NCBI RefSeq assembly: GCF_022695595.1
Contig: NZ_CP074380.1
Coordinates: 4,183,501-4,247,500 of the forward strand
Length of the DNA: 64,000 bases
Direction of reading: 5' to 3'
DNA from: Streptomyces sp. MST-110588
GTDB taxonomy: Bacteria; Actinomycetota; Actinomycetes; Streptomycetales; Streptomycetaceae
Below, in pieces: positions 32,716-47,029 of this stretch. The position numbers and the translations under genes were made by a program. The number at the start of each line of letters is the position of its first letter. Position 1 is the stretch's first letter. The notes under the pieces are model-generated. The model had not been told where the DNA came from. It worked only from the letters and a program-made list of their open reading frames with translations, and made no database searches.

Positions 32716-34023
32716 GTGGCGTCCAACAGGCCCGTCTCCGAGGCTCCGTCCGCGTACGACACCGGTGAGTACGGCGCGGGTTCGGCCGGTCCCGCCGCCC
32801 TTCCTGGTCTCGGCGTCGGTGTTGGTGTCGGCATGATCGTGGGCACAGGCGTAGGGGCAGGGTCAGAGGCAGGCGCGGGTGTAGGCACCGAGGGCCCCGC
32901 CGACGGCTCCTGGGAAGAGCCGGCCTCCGCCGAGGAGGCTGTTTTTTCCGCTTCTCCTGACTCTTCCGCTTCTTCCACTTCTCTGCGCGGCAAGCACCGC
33001 GTCGCACAGCGGCGCGGCGGGCTCACCCGCGGCGGTACGGTCCTGGGCGCCGGCGTCATCGCGGCGGTCGGCGCGAGCGGTGTGGCCGCGGCCGGGGGAC
33101 GGCCGCCGGCCCCGATCTCCCAGCCCGATGCCGACGAGGCATCCATATCCGGCATATCTGGCGCGACTGTCTCTTCAGGTGCGCTTGCAGACGGCACGGC
33201 CTCGCCGGACGCGCAGGCCGTGGGCATGTCGAGTGCGGGCCCGTCGGCCGCGGCGACCGGCGCCCTTTCCCCGCACGACGCGGGCGAAACCCTGCTCACC
33301 CGCATCCTCCAGCAGGTCGATCAGCCGGAGCAGCAGCAGACGCGGCAGGAAGCGGCCCCGGCGCCGGGGACCGTCACCCCTGAGGCCGTACCGGAAGCCG
33401 CGCCCGGGGAGCCGGTGGCCGAGGAGCCGGTGGTCGGCGAAGAACCGGCCGCCGAGCAGCCCACGGCAACATCAGCCGCCGCCGAACCGACCGCCGTCGA
33501 ACCACCTGCCGTCGAACCGGCCACCGGCAAACCCACCGCCGCCGAACCGGCCACCCCCGAACCGGCCACCCCCGAACCCAAGCAGGCGAAAGCCGCGCAC
33601 CGCTCCACCCCCCGCGCCGTCAACATCACCGACTGCGCCGCGCCGCTCTTCTCCTACACCCTCACCACGGGCTTCGGGCAGGCCGGTGACAGGTGGGCCG
33701 CCCACCACACCGGCCAGGACCTCACCGCCCCGGCCGGCACCCCCGTCAAGGCGATCCGCTCCGGCACCATCACGGAATCGGGCTGGTCGGGAGCGTACGG
33801 CTACCGCATCGTCCTGACCCTCGACGACGGGACGGAACTGTGGTTCTGCCACCTCTCCTCAATGGTGAGGTCCTCGGGACGGGTCGCCACCGGCGAGGTG
33901 ATAGGCCGCGTCGGAGCCACCGGCAACACCGCCACACCGCATCTGCACCTGGAGGTACGGCCGGGCGGTGACGCGCCGGTCGACCCGCTCCCGTGGCTGC
34001 GCGACCACGGTGCTGTCATCTGA
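32716..34023 (+). CDS. secreted-type M23 (LytM) peptidoglycan endopeptidase
   Basis: A 435-aa protein. A long Gly/Ala/Ser-rich N-terminus precedes a basic patch (LRGKHRVAQRRGGLTRGG) and a hydrophobic stretch (TVLGAGVIAAVGASGVAAAGG), a signal or anchor at about residue 110-130. A Pro/Glu/Ala-rich linker with EPAT/EPTA repeats follows. The C-terminal LytM domain has Zn ligands in AAHHTGQDLTAPAG and TPHLHLEVRPGG. GTG 32716 has AAGGAG nine bases upstream. It probably cleaves peptide cross-links in the wall; c-di-AMP control is suggested by the leader. Confidence 0.9.
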   Translation: MASNRPVSEAPSAYDTGEYGAGSAGPAALPGLGVGVGVGMIVGTGVGAGSEAGAGVGTEGPADGSWEEPASAEEAVFSASPDSSASSTSLRGKHRVAQRRGGLTRGGTVLGAGVIAAVGASGVAAAGGRPPAPISQPDADEASISGISGATVSSGALADGTASPDAQAVGMSSAGPSAAATGALSPHDAGETLLTRILQQVDQPEQQQTRQEAAPAPGTVTPEAVPEAAPGEPVAEEPVVGEEPAAEQPTATSAAAEPTAVEPPAVEPATGKPTAAEPATPEPATPEPKQAKAAHRSTPRAVNITDCAAPLFSYTLTTGFGQAGDRWAAHHTGQDLTAPAGTPVKAIRSGTITESGWSGAYGYRIVLTLDDGTELWFCHLSSMVRSSGRVATGEVIGRVGATGNTATPHLHLEVRPGGDAPVDPLPWLRDHGAVI

Positions 34024-34142
34024 GCAATCAGCACCGCAGCACCCTGACGGCCATGACCGCTGATTGGCACATCTTTTACGTGGGCACCCGCACAGCGCGG
34101 CGCCGGGGCGCAGGCACCCCGGCTTGTGTTCAGGAGCGTGCG

Positions 34143-35756
34143 ATGCCACCGATCGAAGTCCCCGGCCAGGCTGCCGGCCACAGCAACGCCTCGTCCTCGC
34201 CCTCATCGTCCTCCTCCACCACCGGCACCACTCCCACCGCAAGCCGCACCGGCCCCACGGCCCCCACCGACACCACAGCCACCCACACCGGCGTCCCCAC
34301 CGACGCCACCACCCCCGACCTCGCCCCCGTCACCACGGCCGTCCCCGCCCGCCTGGACCGTCTCCCCTGGTCACGCTTCCACTGGATGGTGGTGATCGGC
34401 CTCGGCACCGTCTGGATCCTCGACGGCCTGGAGGTCACGGTCGTCGGCAACATCGCCGGCCGCCTCTCCGAGCACGGCAGCGGCCTGCCCATCACCTCCG
34501 CCCAGGTCACCGGCATCGCCGCGGCGCTCTATGTCGCCGGCGCCTGCCTCGGAGCCCTGTTCTTCGGCCGGATGACCGACCGCTTCGGTCGGAAGAAGCT
34601 CTTCCTGGTCACCCTCGCGGTCTACCTCACCGCGACCGCCCTGACCGCCATCTCCTTCTCCTCCTGGTGGTTCTTCCTCTTCCGCTTCCTGACGGGCTTC
34701 GGCATCGGCGGGGAGTACGCGGCCATCAACTCGGCCATCGACGAGCTGATCCCCTCCCAGTACCGCGGCCGGGTCGACCTCGTCATCAACGGCAGCTTCT
34801 GGCTCGGCGCGATCGGTGGCTCGCTGCTGTCCATCCTGATGCTGGACACCGACATCTTCGCCGCGAACGTCGGCTGGCGGCTGACCTTCGCCCTCGGCGT
34901 CGTCCTCGGGCTGGTCATCCTCCTCGTACGCCGTCATGTCCCCGAAAGCCCACGCTGGCTCTTCATCCACGGCCGCGGCGAGGAGGCCGAAGAACTCGTC
35001 TCCTCGATCGAGGAGCGCGTCACTTCGGAAAAGGGACAGGAACTCCCGCCCGCTGAGGGCGAGATCACCATCCACCCGCGCCGGAGCATCGGCTTCCTGG
35101 ACATCGCCCGTACCGTCTTCTCCACCTACCGCCGACGCGCCATCCTGGGACTCGCCCTCTTCATAGGGCAGGCATTCCTCTACAACGCGATCACCTTCGG
35201 CTTCGGCGCCATCCTCACCACGTTCTTCGACGTCCCGACGTCCGGCACCGGCTACTACTTCGCCGTCATGGCCGCCGGGAACTTCCTCGGCCCGCTCGTC
35301 CTGGGCAAACTCTTCGACACGGTAGGCCGCCGCGTCATGATCTCCAGCACCTATCTCCTCTCCGGCCTCCTCCTCTTCGGCACCGCCTGGCTGTTCGCCG
35401 GCGGCCACCTCTCCGCCACGACCCTGACCGCCTGCTGGTGCGTCGTCCTCTTCTTCGCCTCGACCGGCGCGAGCAGCGCGTACCTGACCGTCTCCGAGGT
35501 CTTCCCGATGGAGACGCGCGCGATGGCGATCGCCTTCTTCTACGCGGTCGGTACGGCGGCGGGCGGTATCAGCGGCCCGCTCCTGTTCGCCGAACTCACC
35601 AAGTCCGGCGTCGTCGCCGACACCACCCTGGCCTTCTGCATCGGTGCCACGCTGATGTGCCTGGCCGGCCTGACCGCCGCTTTCCTGGCCGTACGGGCCG
35701 AGCGCCGCTCCCTGGAATCCATCGCCACCCCCTTGTCCACCACCCCCGCACCCTGA
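34143..35756 (+). CDS. MFS transporter (sugar/aromatic acid porter type)
   Basis: A 537-aa protein with 12 predicted membrane helices after a 65-residue Ser/Thr/Pro-rich cytoplasmic tail. The MFS signature between helices 2 and 3 is GRMTDRFGRKKLFLV, and it is repeated in the second half as GKLFDTVGRRVMI. FRFLTGFGIGGEYAAINS and RRHVPESPRWLFIHGRGEEAEE are typical of the sugar-porter/aromatic-acid groups. ATG 34143 follows CAGGAG with a 6-nt spacer. Substrate unknown. Confidence 0.9.
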   Translation: MPPIEVPGQAAGHSNASSSPSSSSSTTGTTPTASRTGPTAPTDTTATHTGVPTDATTPDLAPVTTAVPARLDRLPWSRFHWMVVIGLGTVWILDGLEVTVVGNIAGRLSEHGSGLPITSAQVTGIAAALYVAGACLGALFFGRMTDRFGRKKLFLVTLAVYLTATALTAISFSSWWFFLFRFLTGFGIGGEYAAINSAIDELIPSQYRGRVDLVINGSFWLGAIGGSLLSILMLDTDIFAANVGWRLTFALGVVLGLVILLVRRHVPESPRWLFIHGRGEEAEELVSSIEERVTSEKGQELPPAEGEITIHPRRSIGFLDIARTVFSTYRRRAILGLALFIGQAFLYNAITFGFGAILTTFFDVPTSGTGYYFAVMAAGNFLGPLVLGKLFDTVGRRVMISSTYLLSGLLLFGTAWLFAGGHLSATTLTACWCVVLFFASTGASSAYLTVSEVFPMETRAMAIAFFYAVGTAAGGISGPLLFAELTKSGVVADTTLAFCIGATLMCLAGLTAAFLAVRAERRSLESIATPLSTTPAP

Positions 35757-35835
35757 CCCACCTCCCCCGGAACGGCTCCCCCAGCAACCCCGCGAGGAAC
35801 GGGAACACCCCTCGCCCCCCTCCCGTTGAAACGGC

Positions 35836-36783
35836 ATGACCATGAGTCCGACGCAGAAGACCCTCGGTTCCCTGTCCGTCTCCTCTCTCTGCCTGGGCGG
35901 CAACGTCTTCGGGTGGACCGCCGACGAAGCGGAGTCCTTCGCCGTCCTGGACGCGTACGTGGCCGGCGGCGGCAACTTCATCGACACCGCCGACGCCTAC
36001 TCGGCCTGGGCGCCCGGCAACAAGGGAGGCGAGTCCGAGACCGTCATCGGCAACTGGCTCGCCGCGCGCGGCAACCGCTCCGACGTCGTCATCGCCACGA
36101 AGGTCGGCGCGCACCCGGACCTCAAGGGCCTGTCCCCCGACACGATCAAGCGCGCGGTCGACGGTTCCCTGACCCGCCTGCGCACGGACTACATCGACCT
36201 CTACTACACCCACTACGACGACGAATCGCTCCCGGTCGAGGAGTTCCTCGGAGCCCTCGACGAACTGGTCCGGGCCGGCAAGGTCCGCGAAATCGCCGCC
36301 TCCAACATCTCACCGCAGCGCCTGGAAGAAGCCCTCACCTTCTCCACCCGCGAGAACATGGCCCGCTATGTGGCCGTCCAGCCCCACTACAACTTGGTTT
36401 CCCGTGAAACATACGAGGGTGAACTGGCCGACGTCGTAGCCCGCCACGGCCTGTCGGCGATCCCGTACTACGCGCTCGCCTCAGGCTTCCTGACCGGCAA
36501 ATACCGCCCTGGCACCACCATCGACAGCGCCCGCTCCACCAAGGCCGGCGCATACCTGTCCACTCCGCGAGGCCGCAAGATCCTCACCGCCCTCGACGAG
36601 GTGGCCGCCGCCCACCACACCGAGATCCCCACCGTAGCCCTGGCCTGGCTCCTCACCCGCCCCACCGTCGCCGCCCCCATCGCCAGCGCCCGCACGGTCT
36701 CCCAACTCCCCGCCCTCCTGGCCGCCCCCAACCTCCACCTCACCCCGGAAGAACTCACCCTCCTCACCAACGCTTCCGCCTAA
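35836..36783 (+). CDS. aldo/keto reductase
   Basis: A 315-aa TIM-barrel NADPH oxidoreductase. Catalytic residues are visible: Asp in GGNFIDTADAYSAW (with the Tyr), Lys in VVIATKVGAH and His in IDLYYTHYDD. The NADPH-binding part is near VAAPIASARTVSQL. It lies 79 nt after the MFS gene, possibly in one unit. ATG 35836 or 35842 could be the start. The unit ends at the hairpin at 36818. Confidence 0.92.
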   Translation: MTMSPTQKTLGSLSVSSLCLGGNVFGWTADEAESFAVLDAYVAGGGNFIDTADAYSAWAPGNKGGESETVIGNWLAARGNRSDVVIATKVGAHPDLKGLSPDTIKRAVDGSLTRLRTDYIDLYYTHYDDESLPVEEFLGALDELVRAGKVREIAASNISPQRLEEALTFSTRENMARYVAVQPHYNLVSRETYEGELADVVARHGLSAIPYYALASGFLTGKYRPGTTIDSARSTKAGAYLSTPRGRKILTALDEVAAAHHTEIPTVALAWLLTRPTVAAPIASARTVSQLPALLAAPNLHLTPEELTLLTNASA

Positions 36784-36817
36784 CCCACCCACCCGCCTCG
36801 CCACCAGGCACACGAAA

Positions 36818-36849
36818 GGGCGGTCGCGCACACCCGTACGCGACCGCCC
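36818..36849. terminator. terminator between convergent genes
   Basis: An 11-bp perfect stem (36818-36828 with 36839-36849) between the aldo/keto reductase (+) and the small membrane protein gene (-). Confidence 0.7.
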
Positions 36850-36873
36850 CGGCGCCGTCGCCGACTGTCCGAA

Positions 36874-37176
36874 CTACCTACGCCGGTCGGCCACCGCCCA
36901 CGACGCCGCCCCCACAACCCCCGCCACCGCAAACACCGACGGCCAGGCCCCCACCTTCTTCGCCAACGGATGCGACCCGGCAAACGCCGCCACATAAACC
37001 CCACTCAACGCAGCAGCAGCCTTCTTCCCAGCCTTCCTCTCCCACTCCCGAGCCGCCACAACCCCAGCAGCAGCCAAAGCCACCCCACCCAACGGCCTCT
37101 TCTTACTCCACCGAGCCACGCCGTACCCACCTACAAGCCCACCCGCAGCCACAACCGCCGCCGGAACCCTGGCCAT
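36874..37176 (-). CDS. small hydrophobic membrane protein
   Basis: A 100-aa hypothetical rich in Ala, Gly and Val with three short hydrophobic stretches (VPAAVVAAGGLVGGYGVA, LGGVALAAAGVVAA, VFAVAGVVGAASWAVA) and basic connecting loops. ATG 37176 is supported by GGGAGG eight bases upstream. Its coding region is unusually C- and A-rich on the plus strand. It marks the left edge of the accessory island. Confidence 0.7.
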   Translation of the reverse strand: MARVPAAVVAAGGLVGGYGVARWSKKRPLGGVALAAAGVVAAREWERKAGKKAAAALSGVYVAAFAGSHPLAKKVGAWPSVFAVAGVVGAASWAVADRRR

Positions 37177-37240
37177 AACCAAAACCTCCCATGAACGGAT
37201 AACTCCCCCGAGCCTACGCCCGACCGATGAAGCCCTGAGG

Positions 37241-37711
37241 TCACTCGGAAGCCGATGATTCAGGACCGCCCATCGGCTGATCGTGATTCCCCTTGTGCGC
37301 GCGCACGACCTCCGCGACCTGTCTGGCCACCGTCTCGGGCGGCTCGTGCTCCCAGCAGCGCAGAACGGTCCAACCGGCAGCCTGAAGGTGGGCCGTCGTC
37401 TCGATGTCGCGAGCCATGTTGCCGTCGAGTTTTTCGCGCCACCACCGGGCATTGGCCTTGGGACTCGTGGCGTGCTCGGGGCAGCCGTGCCAGAAACAGC
37501 CGTCAAGGAAGACGGCGACCTGCGGCCCCGGAAAGGCGATATCGATCGTACGGCGGGACATACCGGGCACCCGGCGTTGCAACCGATACCTGAGCCCGGC
37601 CCTGTGCAGCAGACGTCGAAGGACAAGTTCCGGCTTGGTGTCCTTCCTGGGCTGACGACTCATGCGGTCGGACACCTCGGGAGAGGACGGCGACATGGGG
37701 GTATGCGTCAT
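37241..37711 (-). CDS. vsr: very short patch repair (Vsr) endonuclease
   Basis: A Vsr-type nicking endonuclease that cuts beside T:G mismatches left by deamination of 5-methylcytosine. Motifs: SRQPRKDTKPELVLRRLLH, IDIAFPG (metal-binding Asp), VFLDGCFWHGCPEH (catalytic/Zn His and Cys), KLDGNMARDIETTAHLQ and LRCWEHE. ATG 37711 gives 156 aa. However, the frame is open to 37948 and the extra 79 residues look protein-like (QVNVDKFLRLEQGLNLAF). No clear ribosome site marks any start. It belongs with the m5C methyltransferase at 42376-43548, whose lesions it would repair. Confidence 0.88.
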   Translation of the reverse strand: MTHTPMSPSSPEVSDRMSRQPRKDTKPELVLRRLLHRAGLRYRLQRRVPGMSRRTIDIAFPGPQVAVFLDGCFWHGCPEHATSPKANARWWREKLDGNMARDIETTAHLQAAGWTVLRCWEHEPPETVARQVAEVVRAHKGNHDQPMGGPESSASE

Positions 37712-38025
37712 ATGAAAAGCATCGCCCATCGGGACAGGGGCGAGGTGCCCGATGGCGTCCACGGGAAGAGTGTGGGTGGCTTCACGCTCGGCACGCTCAA
37801 GTGTTCGACCCCAGACCTCTGACCGAAATGCGAGGTTCAGCCCTTGCTCCAGTCGAAGGAATTTATCGACATTTACCTGCAAAACAGGCATAACGGTCGC
37901 GCGGCTGCGTAGACGTAAGCGCGTCGTGTCGGACGGCGACCCGCGCACGAAAGTGCGGACGGCGGCGTCGAGTGCTGGTCGGCGCCGCCGCCCGCATGGG
38001 CGTGCGGCGATCGTCGGGGCGGGGT

Positions 38026-38187
38026 TCAGTTCTCCAGGTGCCGCACCGCCACCTTGAAGCTGCGCAGGTCGTAGGACGGGTCTCCCATCTCGCCCTCCAC
38101 CAGTACCACCCCCTTCTCGTTCAGGATGCGGATCGAGTTGGTGTCACGTCGGTCCAGCTCGACCGTGACTTCGAGCGTGTCGCCCAT
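38026..38187 (-). CDS. 53-residue protein of unknown function
   Basis: Starts MGDTLEVTVELDRRDTNSIR and ends SFKVAVRHLEN; mostly beta-strand in character, acidic then basic. ATG 38187 is chosen because GGAGG lies eight bases upstream. Upstream in-frame starts (38211, 38226) have no ribosome site. It is upstream of vsr on the same strand and divergent from the HTH-ATPase gene. It could be a small accessory or antitoxin-like protein; nothing identifies it. Confidence 0.6.
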   Translation of the reverse strand: MGDTLEVTVELDRRDTNSIRILNEKGVVLVEGEMGDPSYDLRSFKVAVRHLEN

Positions 38188-38329
38188 GCGGATGTCCTCC
38201 GATTCGTCCATGCCAGCAACCGGCACGTCATCATGGCGCCTGCGCCGTCACTCCTGCAAGGGAGTAGGCGAACGTACGAGCGGGCGCAGTCGCCTCGTGA
38301 AGGGCCCCTGCTGATACGATCCCGTTCAG

Positions 38330-38437
38330 CAATCAGGAGAGACAAGCTAGCAAAATGCGGTTTTTGTCCGTTTCTCGACAACAAAAGTAAAGTTGATCAG
38401 CTAAATTAAGTGGCATCCGAGGGGAAGGGGAACTGAC
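38330..38437 (+). promoter_or_regulatory. AT-rich control region with inverted repeat upstream of the HTH-ATPase gene
   Basis: This is the least GC-rich stretch noted in the window (24/60 G+C at 38341-38400). TTGTC (38364-38368) and GACAA (38377-38381) form an inverted repeat with 8-nt spacing, typical of an XRE-type operator. TAAATT (38402-38407) could be a -10 box. The HTH of the downstream protein is a natural candidate to bind here. Confidence 0.4.
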
Positions 38438-40510
38438 ATGGCGGCCACATTCGGAGCTTGGCTCACAAGAATGCTGACGCTGAGGGGTATGAGTCAGAAG
38501 GAGCTCGCGGATCTGACCGGGGTCACGGGGGCGGCCGTGAACGGTTGGGTGAACGGCCGTTCGGAACCTCGCTATGAGAAGATCGCGGCCATCGCAGATG
38601 CCCTGGGCGTCTCCGTGGACGACGCGGTGAACCGCAGGGTGCCTGCGTCTCGACGGGACGAGCTGAGGTGGATCTTCCGTGCCGCGCCGGAGGACGGTGG
38701 TCGAGAAGGCGGCAACGCGGCCAACTTCGCCTTCGCGGCGAGCCTCGACGTGCTTGCGCGGGAGGCCACGCAGAACAGCCTTGACGAGCGTTTGTCCGAA
38801 GACTCGCCGGTCGTCGCTCGGTACGTGCTGCACGAACTCACGGGTACCCATCTGCGTGACTTCATGGAGGCTTTGGGTTGGGACGCCATCGAAAAGCACA
38901 TTCTGGCCGCCGCCGACCCCCGGCAGAAGGTAGGTCGGGTACTGCGGGACGGCCTCCAAGAGCTGGAACGCACGCAGCGCCTCGTCCTACTGCGGGTGGA
39001 CGACTACAACGCGACCGGGTTGACCGGCCCGGAGTACGAGGACGGACGCTTCGCCCGGGTGGTGCGGCGCACGTTGGACAGCGGTAAGTCGGGTACGCAG
39101 GGCGGGTCGTACGGGCTCGGCAAGGCTGCACTCTGGGCCGCCAGCCGCTTCGGCCTGGTCCTGGTGAACAGCACGCTCTCGGAACCTCAGGACGGGCGTA
39201 CGGAGCGCCGTATGGCCGGCCGGCTGGAGCTTCCGTGGCACCAGCTCGACGGAAGAGACTACGCGGGGCCCGGTTGGTTCGGCGTGGCCGATCCCAAGCG
39301 GCAGAACACCGCTCAGTCGTGGTGGGGTGACCAGGAGTCGGCCGAACGCCTCCACTTGAAACGTGTCGATGCGATGCCGGGTACATCATTCCTGGTGGTG
39401 GGGGCGTACGACGGGTCCGGGGAGACCGAGGACGTCGAGGACATGTACGAGCGCCTGGTGAAAAGCCTTTCACGCAATTTCTGGGCATCGATGGTCGGTG
39501 GCAGGGACGAGAGCCCGAAGCTGCAGGTGTCGGTGGCGGCTTTCCGGAACGGAGCGTCGGTGAAGGCCGAAAAGGTCATTGATCCGCACGAACAGGAACC
39601 TTCCCGTTCCCGAGCTGTCCAGGCGTTTCTCGACGGTGAGACGGTGGAGGAACTGACCGAGCGTCACCAGGTGTTGCAGGCGTCCGTGCCGCTCGAACTG
39701 CGGCGGCGGAAAGACGACGTGGAGACGGGGAACCCGGGCACGCACGAGGCAGTTCTTCTTCTCACTCCCGCCGGTGACGAGGACGAGAACCCGGATCAAA
39801 TCGCATACATGCGAGCGACGCGGATGGTGGTGAAGTACAAGCGCGTCGGTGATCTTCCACTCGGACACCGCCCGTTCCAGGCGGTGCTCCTCGCCGGCGC
39901 GGCAACCCGCCGTCACACGCGGGAGGCAGAGGCGGCCGAGCAGATGTTGCGCACCGCGGAACCTCCGGACCACAACGACTGGGAGGGGACCGAGGACCTG
40001 ACGGCCACGTATGAACGTGGAGCCCGACAAAAGATCCTCGAATTCAAGAAGGCGGCAGAGCAGAAGGTCCGCGAGCTGCTGCGCGCACGGGAGGATGACG
40101 AGTCCCCGGAGGAGGGCCCGGAAGCACTGCGGGAATTGCTGCGCCTGGACCCACCAAGAGTTGCCCGTCTCCAAGGGTTCCCGACGGTGAAGGCCATCGA
40201 GGGAACGGTGGACGGAACGGGAGCCTGGAGCGTGACCGTCACGGTGAAGTTGCCCAAGCGGGACGAGCCGTGGGTGCTCACACCGGTGCCCAAATTCGTC
40301 ACGCGCTCGTCGGCACCGCTGAGTGTCGAATGGTGCGAGATGGAACCGTTGGAGAACTGCGAATTGACGCCGCACGGAAATCTCGTGTTCCGTGACGGAG
40401 CCGTACAAGGCAAGTTCCGTGGCACGACGGAGGTGTCGAGCCACCCGGTGGAGGCGACGATGGCGCAGGTCATGGTCGAGATACGGCGCTCGAAGGAGGA
40501 GTCGGCATGA
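38438..40510 (+). CDS. XRE helix-turn-helix protein fused to a GHKL (MORC/MutL-like) ATPase
   Basis: A 690-aa protein. Residues about 8-62 are an XRE-type HTH (LTLRGMSQKELADLTGVTGAAVNGWVNG, read in two parts: MSQKELADLTGVTG and AAVNGWVNG). The next part has GHKL ATPase motifs: N box LAREATQNSLDE (E109, N113, D116), G1-like LLRVDDYNATGL (D188/D189) and G2-like GGSYGLGKAALW (222-233). The remaining 450 residues are unassigned, with coiled segments (AAEQKVRELLRAREDDE). MORC-like ATPases occur in restriction-related operons with methylases and Vsr. It overlaps the next gene by 4 nt. Confidence 0.8.
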   Translation: MAATFGAWLTRMLTLRGMSQKELADLTGVTGAAVNGWVNGRSEPRYEKIAAIADALGVSVDDAVNRRVPASRRDELRWIFRAAPEDGGREGGNAANFAFAASLDVLAREATQNSLDERLSEDSPVVARYVLHELTGTHLRDFMEALGWDAIEKHILAAADPRQKVGRVLRDGLQELERTQRLVLLRVDDYNATGLTGPEYEDGRFARVVRRTLDSGKSGTQGGSYGLGKAALWAASRFGLVLVNSTLSEPQDGRTERRMAGRLELPWHQLDGRDYAGPGWFGVADPKRQNTAQSWWGDQESAERLHLKRVDAMPGTSFLVVGAYDGSGETEDVEDMYERLVKSLSRNFWASMVGGRDESPKLQVSVAAFRNGASVKAEKVIDPHEQEPSRSRAVQAFLDGETVEELTERHQVLQASVPLELRRRKDDVETGNPGTHEAVLLLTPAGDEDENPDQIAYMRATRMVVKYKRVGDLPLGHRPFQAVLLAGAATRRHTREAEAAEQMLRTAEPPDHNDWEGTEDLTATYERGARQKILEFKKAAEQKVRELLRAREDDESPEEGPEALRELLRLDPPRVARLQGFPTVKAIEGTVDGTGAWSVTVTVKLPKRDEPWVLTPVPKFVTRSSAPLSVEWCEMEPLENCELTPHGNLVFRDGAVQGKFRGTTEVSSHPVEATMAQVMVEIRRSKEESA

Positions 40511-41484
40511 AGACGGCCTACCCCTACCGTGTTCTCAGCGGCGACGTCGATCTGCAGGTCGATCGGTTGTTCGTGGACAACGTGCCGGTGGATCTGGGAA
40601 GGATCGGCGACCGTGACCAGATCGTTGCCGCGCAGGATCTCAACGAGACCCATCAGCGCTGGAGCGAACTACGGTTGAAGGTTTCAGTGACCGCCGACGG
40701 CGACGAAATCTCCGCCGGCCCGTGGAGGTCCCCACAGTGTCTGGTGGTCGTGAGCAACCAACGCACCAACGTCTCCCAGGCGTTCCCGCTACGCCAGGAC
40801 GGGCCGGGCCGATGGCAGGGGGAGGTCGAACTGGCCCGTGACGAGCACATCGTGCGTAGCCGGATCACAGCTCGCATCGTTGCCACGGTGGACGGTGTCG
40901 AAGGACGACTGGTGGGCACGGCACCGACCTGGAGCGTGGATTTTGAGACCAAGCGACCTACCCCTGAGCGTTCGATCAAGATGCGGTGGATCGACTTCAC
41001 CGACCCGTCCAACGATCATTTGAAGGAATACCGTGACGATCCCTGGTTGATCGACACGGAGGCCGGCGAGCCTGTGCTCTATCTCAATTCCTCGGTGGAC
41101 GGGCTGCGCGGCGTATTGGAGAACGCGTCGTCCGCCGAGCAGAAGCTGGTGCGCGAGGTGATGGCCGCGCAGGTGGCGGCCGAAGTTTGGACCGCCATGT
41201 TCAACATGGCGGTGTACGCCTGTGACGTGGTGGACGGTGAACCCCAGTGGCCTGGTGGTTGGCATGAAGATGTACTACGGAGAATGATCCCGGACCTCTA
41301 CCCCACTCATTCCCCGGAGGATGCGCTGGCCGAGTTGGTCCAGGGGCGCGCAGAGGGGGAGAACGGCGGTGACCTGCAGCGCCGGCTGATGCACGGAGCC
41401 GGGGTCCATTCACGCAAACCGCGTAAGGTCTCGACGGCTCTGCGCGACCTGCGGCGCCTGGCGAACAAGAAGGAGAGCGTGTGA
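40507..41484 (+). CDS. unrecognised 325-aa protein of the island
   Basis: No family recognised. The first half looks like a beta-rich domain (VLSGDVDLQVDRLFVDNVPVDL, read as separate strands; LVVVSNQRTNVSQAFPL; GRWQGEVELARDEHIV; TWSVDFETKR), possibly an adaptor. The second half is helical (RGVLENASSAEQKLVREVMAAQ, SPEDALAELVQGRAEGENG) with a basic tail (HSRKPRKVSTALRDLRRL). No nuclease, helicase or membrane motif is visible. The ATGA overlap with the ATPase gene and the GTGA overlap with the next gene imply stoichiometric co-expression. Confidence 0.8.
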   Translation: MKTAYPYRVLSGDVDLQVDRLFVDNVPVDLGRIGDRDQIVAAQDLNETHQRWSELRLKVSVTADGDEISAGPWRSPQCLVVVSNQRTNVSQAFPLRQDGPGRWQGEVELARDEHIVRSRITARIVATVDGVEGRLVGTAPTWSVDFETKRPTPERSIKMRWIDFTDPSNDHLKEYRDDPWLIDTEAGEPVLYLNSSVDGLRGVLENASSAEQKLVREVMAAQVAAEVWTAMFNMAVYACDVVDGEPQWPGGWHEDVLRRMIPDLYPTHSPEDALAELVQGRAEGENGGDLQRRLMHGAGVHSRKPRKVSTALRDLRRLANKKESV

Positions 41485-42386
41485 CAAGGAGCAGGCCGGA
41501 AGTGCCCGAGAGACTGGGGAGACTGCCGGACTCCGTGGTCAGCAAGGTGTTGACGCCGAGCGTGGTGAGAGGGGCACCACTGCCCCAGGCGGCACTGATC
41601 AACGGCTCCGTGGATGCATTCGACGAGTCGCCGCGGTGGAAGGTGGAGGAACTGCGTGCCCTCCTCGACGAGGTGCTGGAACGCTTCGAAGGGGAGCGCC
41701 CGACGGCGTCCGACGCATGGCTGGCTCCTCGACTGCACTCCACGGTGCGTCTTTTCAGGGCAGAGGCCGCGGATTCGGCCCTATGGAACTTCATCGCCCT
41801 GCGCGTCGGTCCCGACTACGTCCGATGGCGCTGGGGCAAGAAGTCGCAGGGCGGTCGCACGGTCGTCGGTCAGGCGGCGCGCTTCAGCGGACGTTGGGAC
41901 ATCCAGGCTTTTTCCCGGCTCTGGTGGGCCGCCGAACTTTTCCGCGACGGCGACGAGTATGCGCCGGTTGTCGTGGCGTGTGGGAACCAAGACGTCCTCA
42001 ACACTGCGCTTCGACTGGACATGAACCATCACCGACCGTCCGCCCAAGCTCTGGTGCGTCTTCTGGAGACAGAAGTCGTGCGCACAGGACGAGATGTGAA
42101 CGGCCTCGTCAAGGCGGCGGGTGCGGCGGGGAGCACGTTGGTGTACGAGGCGCTGGCTGCCGACGAACCACGTGACCACGAAGCCGTGCGTGCATGGATC
42201 GATGCTGTTGAGTCCGACCTGCTGTGGAGCCCCGGTGGCCTGCCGCGGGGGCCGGCCGACGGAAAAGCTCCGAACCACTCGGTGGAGAAGCTCACCGAGT
42301 GGTTCGCGAACCTCTTCGCGACTGCCCCGGTGCGTGGCAGGGAGTTGGGCGAGAGTGATGAAGAGGAGGTGGAAATCAGGACCTGA
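41481..42386 (+). CDS. DUF6339-like protein of the island
   Basis: A 301-aa soluble protein that resembles the DUF6339 family (judged by eye). Such proteins occur beside MutL-like ATPases and Z1/AIPR proteins in actinobacterial defence loci (recollection). Distinct segments are ALWNFIALRVGPDYVRWRWG, FSGRWDIQAFSRLWWAAEL, VVVACGNQDVLNTALRLDM and VEKLTEWFANLF. No catalytic motif is obvious. The GTG start overlaps the previous stop. Its 3' end overlaps the methyltransferase gene on the other strand by 11 bp, tail to tail. Confidence 0.72.
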   Translation: MTRSRPEVPERLGRLPDSVVSKVLTPSVVRGAPLPQAALINGSVDAFDESPRWKVEELRALLDEVLERFEGERPTASDAWLAPRLHSTVRLFRAEAADSALWNFIALRVGPDYVRWRWGKKSQGGRTVVGQAARFSGRWDIQAFSRLWWAAELFRDGDEYAPVVVACGNQDVLNTALRLDMNHHRPSAQALVRLLETEVVRTGRDVNGLVKAAGAAGSTLVYEALAADEPRDHEAVRAWIDAVESDLLWSPGGLPRGPADGKAPNHSVEKLTEWFANLFATAPVRGRELGESDEEEVEIRT

Positions 42387-43548
42387 GCGCTTCGTAAACC
42401 ATTCCGGCCAGAGCTTTTGAGAGCCCGACCGGTACGGCGTTGCCGATCTGCCGCCCGATCTGAATTTTACTGCCGCTCCACTTGAAATCCTTGGGAAACC
42501 CTTGGATCAGAGCTGCTTCGTAATGTGTGATGGGGCGGTGGGCGCGCGGATGGAGGTAACGTCCCTTTTCCGGCTTGTAGAACTCGGTTCGGATGGTGAC
42601 CGATGGTCGGTCCCAGTACAGGCGCCCCATGACGTCGTGGGAACCTGTTTTATGAGCCAACCACTTCTCGGTGGACAGCGCCGGCGGCAGATCGTGCCGG
42701 TTTCCGCCTTCAGGGATGGCTTCGTAACGCCTCTTGGAGAGGGGGGTCGGATTTCTTCCGAAATGTAGATCCGTGGTCTTGAAGGCGCCGGGGAGCGTGA
42801 CTCCCAGCGGGTCACACTTGCCCTCGGGAAGTTCGGTGGTAAGCGTTTCCTCGGGAGTGTGGGCGAAAACTGACGGGCCCACCCCTACCCACGATTGCTG
42901 TTCGGAACCGGGAAGGAATTCCAGGCCGTTCTTGGCGTGGGTCGGTTTCGGATACTGCATGTTCGCCAAATGCTTCAGGTCTCGACGCACGGCGACAACT
43001 ATCGCGCGGCGACGGGCCTGCGGCACGCCGTAGTCGGCGGAGTTCAGAACCGAATGCTGGGCCAGGACGTAATCGCGCAGTTCGCCGTCCGGTTTCTCGG
43101 TCGCCGCGTGCAGCAAGGCGAATTCCGGGGAGCGGAGGAAGCGGTCGACGTTCTCGACGATGAAGAGCTTCGGCTTGATGGCGTTCACGATGCGTGTGTA
43201 CTCACGCCACAACTTGTTGCGGGGATCGTTCTCATCTTCCTTGCCGAGACCCGAGAAGCCCTGACAGGGCGGCCCTCCGAGGATCACCTCGGCCTGGACC
43301 TCCTTGGAATCCGGCTCCCAGTCCTCGATGTCCCCGGCATGGATGTGTTCCACCCCACCGGCCTCGTCGGCGAAGTTGAGTGCATACGTGGAGGCTGCGG
43401 CAATGTCGTGCTCGACTGCCGCAGCCGTACGGAAGACGGGCTCGGTGACACCGAGGGGGCGGAACTCGTGGAAGCCCTGCGTGAAGCCCCCGCAACCCGA
43501 AAATAGATCAACTACGTTGATGGTGCGGGGGTTGCGGGAGGCGCTCAT
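42376..43548 (-). CDS. DNA (cytosine-5) methyltransferase, complete
   Basis: A 390-aa C5-cytosine methylase with all key motifs: I VVDLFSGCGGFTQGF, IV GGPPCQGFSG (catalytic Cys95), VI FIVENVDRF, VIII PQARRRAIVVAV, a target-recognition region of about 130 residues, IX RPSVTIRTEF and X QIGRQIGNAVPVGL. The target sequence cannot be read from the protein. ATG 43548 has no good ribosome site, and its start overlaps the stop of the upstream frame (ATGA), so it may depend on coupling. With vsr in the same island it forms the classical Dcm/Vsr pairing. Confidence 0.93.
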   Translation of the reverse strand: MSASRNPRTINVVDLFSGCGGFTQGFHEFRPLGVTEPVFRTAAAVEHDIAAASTYALNFADEAGGVEHIHAGDIEDWEPDSKEVQAEVILGGPPCQGFSGLGKEDENDPRNKLWREYTRIVNAIKPKLFIVENVDRFLRSPEFALLHAATEKPDGELRDYVLAQHSVLNSADYGVPQARRRAIVVAVRRDLKHLANMQYPKPTHAKNGLEFLPGSEQQSWVGVGPSVFAHTPEETLTTELPEGKCDPLGVTLPGAFKTTDLHFGRNPTPLSKRRYEAIPEGGNRHDLPPALSTEKWLAHKTGSHDVMGRLYWDRPSVTIRTEFYKPEKGRYLHPRAHRPITHYEAALIQGFPKDFKWSGSKIQIGRQIGNAVPVGLSKALAGMVYEALRS

Positions 43549-44576
43549 GGGCTAGATCTTAGTCGGCGAAGGGCGTGTTCAGCACGAGCCCTACGAGGAA
43601 GGGGCGAGGGCTGCGAATATGCGCCGCCCGAGAGCCTGGGCGAGCGGCGGGGCACGGCCTGCCCCACCTGCCGATAGCTACGGGTCTTCAACCCGGTGAT
43701 CACCCAGTCCGAAGGGAAGCCCTGCAGCAGCGCAGTCTGCGGAACAGTCAGGGCGGGCAGGTTCTTGCGATCTCCGGTCGGGTCCCAGGGGGTGTCCGGT
43801 CCCGGCAACGAGTCGGCGACGGTGCCGCCGTTGATGCCCATCTCCTGCCAGATCTTCTTCGCCCTGGCGGGGCCGAGATCGGCGCCGCCGCGCTTGTCCG
43901 AACCGCCGACCAGAGTCGGGGCGACACGCTGAGCGTGCGCCGCCCATGTGTGTGCGTGAGGCCATCCCTGTTCCGCCATGGAGGCGTGAAGCGCATCACC
44001 GACGGTCGGTGCCGGGCCGGGAAGGGGTTCCGGCCAGGTGAAGGCACCAGCAAAAGGCTCTTTCAGGGCGACGAAGAATCCGTGTTTGCGGTCCTGGGGT
44101 ACGCCGTAATGCATGGCGTTCAGTACCTTTGCGAACAGGCGGTATCCAAGGTGCTCCAGCTCGGCTCGGATCTCCGCACGTACGTCGGCGAAGTCTGCCC
44201 CGTCGACGAGCCCTGGGACGTTCTCGATGATTACTGCCTTGGGCCCGACGGCTCCCACCAGATAGAGCGCTGCTGTGACCAGCTTGCGTTCGGCTTCGTC
44301 CTCCGGGCGGTTGATCGTGGCCACAGACTTGACCCTCGGAGTGCCTGCGGACAGGAGATCGACATCGAAGGCTTCAGGGTGCTGGGCCGGGTCGAATGTG
44401 CTCAGGTCCTCCTGGAGCAGCGGCCAGTTCGGCCTGTTGGCCTTCAGCGTCTCAAGGGATTGCCCGTCCGTTTCGACCAGGAGGGACGGTGTGAAGCCGG
44501 CGTTCTCCAGTCCGAGGGCCAGACCTCCGGCACCTGCGCAGAGTTCCAGTGATCTGAGACGGGTCGATGTGGTCAT
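43545..44576 (-). CDS. DNA methyltransferase-like protein without catalytic Cys; apparent C-terminal frameshift
   Basis: A C5-methylase fold: motif I SLELCAGAGGLALGLENAGF, motif VI VIIENVPGL, motif VIII-like GVPQDRKHGFFVAL and motif X-like RQVGQAVP. Motif IV, where PC(Q/P) is expected, reads LLSAGTPRVKS, so the nucleophile Cys is replaced by Arg81. After AVP the frame runs into an Arg/Pro/Ser-rich tail of about 34 residues. The other frame from that point reads PPLAQALGRRIFAALAPSS and stops at 43591, a normal methylase ending. One G seems missing in the GGGG run at 43649-43652. ATG 44576 is preferred (AAGGAG, 4 nt); ATG 44579 is adjacent. Confidence 0.85.
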   Translation of the reverse strand: MTTSTRLRSLELCAGAGGLALGLENAGFTPSLLVETDGQSLETLKANRPNWPLLQEDLSTFDPAQHPEAFDVDLLSAGTPRVKSVATINRPEDEAERKLVTAALYLVGAVGPKAVIIENVPGLVDGADFADVRAEIRAELEHLGYRLFAKVLNAMHYGVPQDRKHGFFVALKEPFAGAFTWPEPLPGPAPTVGDALHASMAEQGWPHAHTWAAHAQRVAPTLVGGSDKRGGADLGPARAKKIWQEMGINGGTVADSLPGPDTPWDPTGDRKNLPALTVPQTALLQGFPSDWVITGLKTRSYRQVGQAVPRRSPRLSGGAYSQPSPLPRRARAEHALRRLRSSP

Positions 44577-44784
44577 CATTCTCCTTGACAGCCGTGGGAT
44601 GTACTCAACGTACGTGAAAGGCCGATCGTGGAGAAGGCCCTTCTCGCATACCGTCCGGTCCTTTTTGTGGCGTCACCTGCATCTTTCGAATGGGCGGTCC
44701 ATGGCTCCCTTTTAAGGGCGTCATGGCTTTCGAATTATTTGGCCCGAACAAAGGGGTGGCATCACTTCTCTGCGAGCGGTCTCG

Positions 44785-46140
44785 TCACCGATCGTGCCGT
44801 TCGGATGTGCCCGGTGGTGGGACCTGAGGTGCCGGCGGACAGTGCGGCCACGTCGGGAAGGAGGCGTGGAGGAAGGCGGGGTGAGTTGGGGGTTTGTGGT
44901 GCCAGAGGTGGTGGAGGAGGGATTGTTCGCGGGTGGGGAAGTCGGGGGTGGGGCCGGTGCGGTGGGCTCGGCGGCGGAGGAAGGCTAGGGAGGTGGCCAG
45001 GGCGGCGTACTCGGTGACGGCGCGGGCGGCGGCGGGGCCGTGGGTGTGGCGGGCGATGTCGCGGGCTCGGGCGCGGGTTTTGAGGGAGGACAGGGCGAGG
45101 GGTTCGTGGGGGAGGAGCCAGCCGGTGGCCACGTACGGGAGGAGGTAGGTGCGCAGGGAGAGGAGTTCGCGGTGGCGGGTCCAGATGGCCAGCCAGGTCA
45201 GGGCCGCGAAGACCGGGACCATGATCAGGCCGTAGACGGTCAGGAAGCCGAAGTCGCCGAGGTTGGAGGCGCCGTTCCAGATGGAGTGCAGGAGGACGGC
45301 GGTCAGCAGGCCGAGGAAGGGCAGGGCCAGCCGTAGCGGGCGGCGGGCGGGGTAGCGGGTGGCGGCTATGCCGAAGGCCAGGCCGGTGAGGATCGTGAAG
45401 AGGGGGTGCGCGAAGGGGGACATGATCACGCGTACGAAGAAGGTGCCGGCGGTCAGGGAGTCCAGGCCGGTGTGGCCCAGGGACTGGTCCTGTCCGAAGG
45501 CGTTGCCGATGTAGAGAACGTTCTCGGTGAAGGCGAAGCCGGTGGCGGTGATGCCGGCGATGACGATGCCGTCCGTGATGCCGTCGAAGTCGCGGCGGCG
45601 GAAGAGGAAGAGGAGGAGGACCGCGGCGGCTTTCACCGATTCCTCGACGACCGGGGCGATGACGGTGGCGCCCCAGGTTTCCGCGTCGCGTGGCGAGAGC
45701 GTGGACAGGTTGGTGGCCAGCCAGTTCGTGGCGAAGCTGTTGGCGAGGATGGCCACCAGCGTGGCGGCGCAGGCGCCCCAGGCGAAGGCGAACGCGAGGT
45801 TGCGCCAGGGCTCCGGCTCCAGGCGGTCCAGCCAGCAGAAGGCGGCCAGGAGGACGGGGACGGGGAAGACCGCGAGGCCCAGGCCGACGAGGAAGCCCTC
45901 GGTGCCTGTCTGCTGGCGGACCATCGCGAGGATGATCACGCCGCAGAGGGAGAGCAGGGAGATCAGTCCGATTGCCCGGGCCGTTCTGCTGTGCCACAGA
46001 GGGGGCCGGCGCGGCTTGTAGTGGTACCGCGCCGGTGAGGTGGGCGAGGCAGCGGCGGGGGTGCCTGGGCTCGGCGCGTACGCCGGCAGCGGCGGGTGGG
46101 CCGGTATCGGCGGATGCGAGGGCGGCGGAGGCGGGTGCAC
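44785..46140 (-). CDS. PrsW-family intramembrane metalloprotease
   Basis: A 451-aa protein. It has a Pro-rich cytoplasmic N-terminus and eight or so membrane helices. PrsW motifs are APVVEESVKAAAV (EExxK), TGFAFTENVLYIGN (FxxxE), MSPFAHPLFTILTG and AVLLHSIWNGAS. A cytoplasmic Arg/His/Pro-rich tail follows. PrsW homologues cleave anti-sigma factors in regulated proteolysis; the partner here is unknown. The GTG start has no ribosome site, but TAGGGT lies six bases upstream, so it may be leaderless despite following trmB by 28 nt. Confidence 0.9.
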   Translation of the reverse strand: MHPPPPPSHPPIPAHPPLPAYAPSPGTPAAASPTSPARYHYKPRRPPLWHSRTARAIGLISLLSLCGVIILAMVRQQTGTEGFLVGLGLAVFPVPVLLAAFCWLDRLEPEPWRNLAFAFAWGACAATLVAILANSFATNWLATNLSTLSPRDAETWGATVIAPVVEESVKAAAVLLLFLFRRRDFDGITDGIVIAGITATGFAFTENVLYIGNAFGQDQSLGHTGLDSLTAGTFFVRVIMSPFAHPLFTILTGLAFGIAATRYPARRPLRLALPFLGLLTAVLLHSIWNGASNLGDFGFLTVYGLIMVPVFAALTWLAIWTRHRELLSLRTYLLPYVATGWLLPHEPLALSSLKTRARARDIARHTHGPAAARAVTEYAALATSLAFLRRRAHRTGPTPDFPTREQSLLHHLWHHKPPTHPAFLHASFPTWPHCPPAPQVPPPGTSERHDR

Positions 46141-46168
46141 CTACCGACCCTAACCACGCGCAGGCGGA

Positions 46169-47029
46169 CTATGCGGGGCGGCGGCGGAAGAGGAGGTCGT
46201 GGACCACATGTCCCTTGTCCAGTCCCTGTCCCTCGAACTTGGTCAGAGGCCGGAAATCCGGCCGTGGGGCGTAGTCGGGGTAGAGGTTCTCCAGGGTCGG
46301 CTCGGCGGAGAGGACCTCCAGCATCTGCTCGGCGTACGGTTCCCAGTCGGTCGCGCAGTGGACCAGGGCGCCGGGGGCGAGCCGGGTGGACGCGAGGGAG
46401 ATGAAGTCGGGCTGGATCAGCCGGCGCTTGTGGTGCCGCTTCTTCGGCCACGGGTCGGGGAAGAAGACGCGCAGACCGGCGAGTGAGCCGGGGGCGAGCA
46501 TCTCGCGCAGGAGGATGATCGCGTCACCATTGGCCACCCGGATGTTGGACAGGCCGTTCCGCTCCGCCAGGCCGAGCAGATTGCCCTGACCGGGGGTGTG
46601 GACGTCGCAGGCCAGGATGCCGGTGTCGGGGTCGTCGGCGGCCATCTGCGCCGTCGCCTCGCCCATGCCGAAGCCGATCTCAAGGACGACGGGCCGGCCG
46701 TCGAAGAGCTTGCCCAGGTCGATCCGGGACAGGCCGTCGATGTCCAGGCCCCACTCGGACCAACGGCGCCGGATCGCGGCGGCCTGACCGGGCGAGACGC
46801 GGCTGCGGCGGGGCTGGAAGGAGCGGATCCGGCGCTCGTGGTGGGAGCCGGCGGGGTCGGCCGCGGGGCCCGTGCCGTCGGGGAACATCGGCTCGGGCCG
46901 GGGCCCGCGGGCGGCGGATTCGGCCGGTCCGGCGGACTCCGCGGGCTCGGTGGGCGCGGTGGGCGCGGTGCGTGCAGTGGCGCCCGTGGAGGCGGCGGGT
47001 TCGGCGGGGGTGGCGGAGTTCTCGGACAC
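46169..47029 (-). CDS. trmB: tRNA (guanine-N7-)-methyltransferase TrmB
   Basis: SAM-dependent m7G46 tRNA methylase. A 60-residue disordered Ala/Thr/Pro N-terminus precedes the conserved core: RIRSFQPRRSRVSPGQ, VVLEIGFGMGEATAQMA (SAM loop), ACDVHTPGQGNLL, RVFFPDPWPKKRHHKRR (the TrmB signature) and RPLTKFEGQGLDKGHVVHDL. The GTG start lies nine bases after TAGAAT, a likely -10 box. Length 286 aa. Confidence 0.95.
   Translation of the reverse strand: MSENSATPAEPAASTGATARTAPTAPTEPAESAGPAESAARGPRPEPMFPDGTGPAADPAGSHHERRIRSFQPRRSRVSPGQAAAIRRRWSEWGLDIDGLSRIDLGKLFDGRPVVLEIGFGMGEATAQMAADDPDTGILACDVHTPGQGNLLGLAERNGLSNIRVANGDAIILLREMLAPGSLAGLRVFFPDPWPKKRHHKRRLIQPDFISLASTRLAPGALVHCATDWEPYAEQMLEVLSAEPTLENLYPDYAPRPDFRPLTKFEGQGLDKGHVVHDLLFRRRPA

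Follow-up and report, generated by a model that had tools for sequence, protein, structure and literature searches.

A cysteine-less cytosine methylase homologue as a candidate DNA reader in a GHKL ATPase island of Streptomyces sp. MST-110588

The window analysed here, a stretch of 64,000 nucleotides (nt), belongs to Streptomyces sp. MST-110588 (contig NZ_CP074380.1, positions 4,183,501 to 4,247,500; a single-contig genome of 7.9 Mb) and carries an island in which a GHKL-type ATPase lies beside two proteins of the C5-cytosine methylase family. On the plus strand, the island encodes an ATPase with an Xre-type helix-turn-helix (HTH) domain (38438-40510), a middle protein to which the profile scans assigned no family (40507-41484) and a DUF6339 protein (41481-42386). 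On the minus strand lie a Vsr-type endonuclease gene (37241-37948), a small open reading frame (ORF; 38026-38226), an active-type methylase, MT1 (42376-43548), and a second methylase homologue, MT2 (43545-44579). Overlaps of 4 nt join the ATPase to the middle gene, the middle gene to the DUF6339 gene and MT2 to MT1, MT2 being upstream. The plus-strand trio and the methylase pair are convergent, with 11 nt shared between the two runs, and the GC content over 37-45 kb is 0.61-0.67 as compared with approximately 0.66-0.75 in the flanks. Named homologues came for the most part from Streptomyces. The gene positions, strands, 4-nt overlaps, convergence and low GC content described in the initial annotation were all reproduced, and its HTH-ATPase, DUF6339-like and Vsr calls were backed by Pfam and PADLOC profile matches.

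The same annotation had described a 5-methylcytosine (m5C) methylase pair. Both proteins indeed match Pfam DNA_methylase (184 bits for MT1 and 141 bits for MT2), but it had overlooked that MT2 lacks the catalytic cysteine. While MT1 presents the PCQ and ENV motifs of an active C5-cytosine methylase (GGPPCQGFSG, ENV), motif IV of MT2 reads GTPRVKSVA and not Pro-Cys. Homology searches retrieved 2866 MT2 homologues at E ≤ 0.001, and the best 120, the window's own copy included, were aligned; being the nearest relatives, they are a test of the clade, not of the family at large. The cysteine was absent in all 120 (109 with PRVK/R and 11 with another PR form). Pro80 and Arg81 were invariant among them, and G15, G17 and G18 of motif I, E118 and N119 of motif VI (ENV) and the Gln and Arg of motif VIII were conserved. 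Every readable MT2 copy of the fetched loci was likewise Cys-less (in L073 the motif lay outside the coverage), with GGPPCQ in 58 of 60 relative loci as an internal control for this reading. Early lines retained a near-canonical motif with the cysteine changed, as in LPRSPYTVAGK (L034) and LPRLPYSVAAKQ (Sphaerisporangium), and Herbidospora galbida (L173) carried a serine in an otherwise near-canonical motif, the sole Ser form seen. In a tree of 90 rows, the 50 Cys-less rows all fell on one side of one branch (support 98), and the same split received a support of 94 in an 81-row tree; a single loss of the cysteine therefore suffices. We do not regard MT2 as a local pseudogene, since the lack of the cysteine is conserved clade-wide and the apparent damage is confined to the end of the window copy.

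A second set was built from one genome per species (at least 589 stretches and 523 relatives), and its best 80 loci were kept; it overlaps the first set, since at least 10 of its 45 Cys-less loci had already been fetched. The remaining 35 loci held Cys-bearing relatives of MT2. A GHKL ATPase and DUF6339 were present within approximately 9 kb, a span that is shorter at contig ends, in 40 of the 45 Cys-less loci and in none of the 35 Cys-bearing ones, a comparison whose exact test ignores shared descent. Cys-bearing relatives occurred in many phyla and Cys-less ones in Actinomycetota only, so that lineage and gene context are partly confounded; the Cys-bearing copies from Actinomycetota likewise lacked the module. 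In the phylum draw, MT2 relatives (E ≤ 1e-50) were found in 7 of 296 genomes, three of them Cys-less and all three in the genus of the window, its own genome included. Among the 80 viral loci kept, 78 were Cys-bearing, two were unreadable and none carried the module, in a motif count that leaves out 225 phage records.

The core module showed a conserved composition. The initial annotation had proposed co-occurrence as a check, and the three core genes were found together in 60 out of 60 relative loci, with an active-type methylase beside them in 58. The ATPase carries an HTH_3 domain (48.9 bits, Pfam); its GHKL domain had no Pfam match and was matched by the PADLOC model PDC-M33A (E 9.6e-25). 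In 60 readable relative loci the N-box was kept in 56 and the G1 motif in all, while the G2 motif was readable in only 24. As these motifs are conserved, the ATPase likely uses ATP. Of 392 genomes, 84 contained the ATPase and the same 84 contained the middle protein, which is beyond chance. The DUF6339 protein matched PF19866 (36.6 bits, cut-off 23.2) and PDC-M33C (E 1.1e-5), and its structure was predicted to be all-helical, whereas that of the middle protein was predicted as a beta-sandwich (residues ~15-146) followed by a helical C-terminal part. With regard to a dedicated restriction endonuclease, as in type II systems, the structure models of these two proteins gave no convincing nuclease match, an absence that is no proof, and Vsr was the only nuclease-like protein in the island. 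No plasmid match was found for the middle protein. In some relatives, DUF6339 is fused to the Cys-less methylase.

Vsr was identified by Pfam (Vsr, 56.9 bits) and NCBIfam (vsr, 105.8 bits, cut-off 97.85), with the domain at residues ~93-202 and TIDIAF and CFWHGC-type motifs present. It was the sole match in the window's genome, and the first GTG probably lies upstream of its true start. The small gene claimed beside it exists as an ORF of 66 amino acids from the first start and 53 from a later one, but its status as a gene is doubtful: it matched no family in the Pfam, PADLOC and NCBIfam scans, had no convincing relatives among the fetched loci compared and perhaps does not belong to the system. 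The island lies in an apparent hot spot (33993-47029 of the window) between an MFS/aldo-keto reductase gene pair and PrsW/trmB. In another genome (G303, L031/L091), the same flanking genes enclose a larger version of the system, which adjoins a third methylase of the same subfamily with the cysteine in place (L091:5070-6287, VPCPPFS). PrsW/trmB also lie near the fused operon type in L110, an MFS gene lies near it in L119, and PrsW lies near a different module in L126.

We consider, with a probability of roughly 45%, that MT1 marks DNA and that MT2 with DUF6339 reads it. MT1 would write a methyl mark on the DNA, MT2 together with DUF6339 would read the DNA, and the reader would stall on unmarked sites and call the GHKL ATPase through DUF6339. 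The sequences suggest that MT2 reads DNA and does not methylate it, because this methylase look-alike is conserved across relatives, some of which have it joined to a further component of the system. Known chemistry lends support to such a reader, since a catalytic-Cys mutant of M.EcoRII is reported to form tight DNA complexes that block forks at its sites (PMC4437897). A broader proposal, more tentative again, is that these loci represent a widespread actinobacterial restriction-like family, in which self and non-self would be told apart by a naturally dead C5-cytosine methylase. A writer fold, turned reader in one ancestral event that removed the cysteine, would arrest on unmarked sites and call the GHKL ATPase via DUF6339, and the same reader would serve compact, MZA-like and DISARM-like effector sets. 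The island has the look of an anti-phage system, and the view of it as a compact restriction-like system, already put forward in the initial annotation, is supported in part.

Several observations weigh against this reading. The last ~34 codons of the window's MT2 (~43545-43650) lie outside the frame kept by relatives, where intact copies exist, and the window copy may therefore be impaired, or the assembly wrong. MT2 was missing from 6 of 60 loci in the stretch read and from 3 of 84 genomes at the cut-off used. Five of the 45 Cys-less copies lacked the module (L133, L137, L142, L145 and L150). In a scan of seven proteins from L133, L142, L145 and L150, DrmB turned up in L133, L142 and L150 and DrmA in L142, while L145 and L150 carried TmtA-like proteins that have helicase domains; L137 resembles L133 in gene sizes and first residues, its sole basis. 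The Cys-less methylase thus also accompanies other defence sets (DISARM-type and TmtA-like). The middle protein and the equivalent gene of the fused operons gave an hhalign probability of 2.6 (E 0.018), which leaves their homology unsupported. MT1 comprised two families (46 and 9 of 55 loci) and MT2 one, so that a common target for the two is conjectural. Finally, related sequences inflate all of the counts, and the nearness of an active-type methylase to most Cys-less copies, like the MT2/MT1 overlap, fits a partnership between the two methylases equally well.

In that partnership, MT2 would help MT1 without catalysis of its own, by positioning or stimulating it, and restriction would fall to a separate arm, the GHKL module. 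Non-catalytic partners have precedents in DNMT3L with DNMT3A and in two-subunit methylases. We regard this as the strongest alternative, if an unlikely one. MT2 and MT1 are adjacent in that order, 39 of 45 and 16 of 17 Cys-less copies had an active-type methylase nearby with a relaxed motif filter (a stricter one, which proved too strict, gave 37 of 62), and in L106 MT1 comes immediately after the DUF6339-methylase fusion gene. Nevertheless, where MT2 is fused it is joined to DUF6339 and not to MT1, and its single family stands against the two of MT1: MT1 identity was below 35% in 412 of 1485 pairs, and within these the median identity of MT2 was 54%. The idea that MT1 and MT2 co-vary in specificity was set aside, though not decisively: a hypervariable recognition region was seen in neither. 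Mean identities of the recognition region and the catalytic part were 0.59 and 0.63 for MT2, 0.46 and 0.57 for the larger MT1 family and 0.59 and 0.65 for the smaller one.

A further explanation, which we find improbable, is mere neighbourhood in a hot spot: an ordinary type II-like unit for m5C modification, whose Vsr would repair deamination, and a GHKL defence unit with no relation to it. Vsr is a usual companion of m5C methylases, unrelated systems gather in islands, and relatives hold different systems in the same chromosomal region. Against mere neighbourhood stand the constancy of the core trio and its active-type methylase across relative loci, the existence of a DUF6339-methylase fusion and the coupling of the cysteine loss to the module. 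No better placed is the idea that MT2 is still an enzyme, using S-adenosylmethionine without the motif-IV cysteine and with an altered chemistry or substrate. In most members, motif IV has been extensively remodelled (PRVKS) and does not resemble the DPPY-type motif of amino-methylases. On the other hand, the strong conservation of motif I, ENV and the motif VIII Gln and Arg suggests that the cofactor and base pocket were kept, the Ser form of L173 exists, and a title in the reference list of PMC4437897 speaks of partial activity in a cytosine methylase whose active-site Cys is replaced by Ser. Similarly improbable, in our view, is decay, by which the window copy would be what remains of a once larger, MZA-like system.

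To our knowledge, how GHKL-type restriction systems recognize foreign DNA is an open question. A conserved Cys-less methylase that gene fusion links to a defence protein, and that is accompanied by an active-type methylase, offers an answer that is concrete and simple to test. In the open-licence literature searched, we found no report of a natural, conserved Cys-less bacterial m5C methylase in defence and no paper naming DUF6339. By implication, many proteins listed in databases as "DNA cytosine methyltransferase" are probably something other than ordinary methylases, a point of importance when methylomes and restriction barriers are predicted for antibiotic-producing actinomycetes.

The neighbour types are each already known, as PDC-M33, MZA genes and MORC-type restriction-modification (R-M) operons. 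With respect to MZA, PADLOC gave no MzaB or MzaD match for the plus-strand trio, Vsr and the small ORF, nor among the best 25 matches of MT1 and MT2; DUF4420 (MzaD) was matched neither in the window's genome nor in the control genomes, and PF10593 was matched in 1 of 14 control genomes and not in that of the window. As for DISARM, some Cys-less methylases of relatives adjoin DrmB and DrmA, and MT1 and MT2 match DrmMII among many other methylase models in PADLOC, whereas no DrmA or DrmB match appeared among the seven island proteins (all matches for five of them, the best 25 for MT1 and MT2). PDC-M33, a PADLOC phage-defence candidate, is matched by the island ATPase (PDC-M33A) and the DUF6339 protein (PDC-M33C), while the middle protein had no PADLOC match at E ≤ 1 and fits M33B by its position between A and C only; no paper naming this candidate was found in the literature searched, and it is known here from its models alone. 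The HEF_HK and Response_reg_2 elements share with the island a neighbourhood of GHKL ATPase, C5 methylase and Vsr (PMC8011034, consulted in part), but neither domain had a Pfam match in the ten window proteins scanned. The combination of a GHKL ATPase, a cytosine methylase and Vsr is also found in MORC/paraMORC R-M operons, and a minority of their neighbourhoods have no helicase (Iyer et al. 2008, PMC2292703, consulted in part). The island likewise has a GHKL ATPase with intact motifs beside a methylase and Vsr; it differs in its Cys-less methylase, of which the consulted part of that paper makes no mention; the word "inactive" is absent from the paper's text. Lastly, the laboratory mutant M.EcoRII-C186A (PMC4437897) resembles MT2 in having a methylase fold without the catalytic cysteine. 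The mutant carries a single engineered change, whereas MT2, known from sequence alone, represents a natural and conserved clade with an arginine and a remodelled motif.
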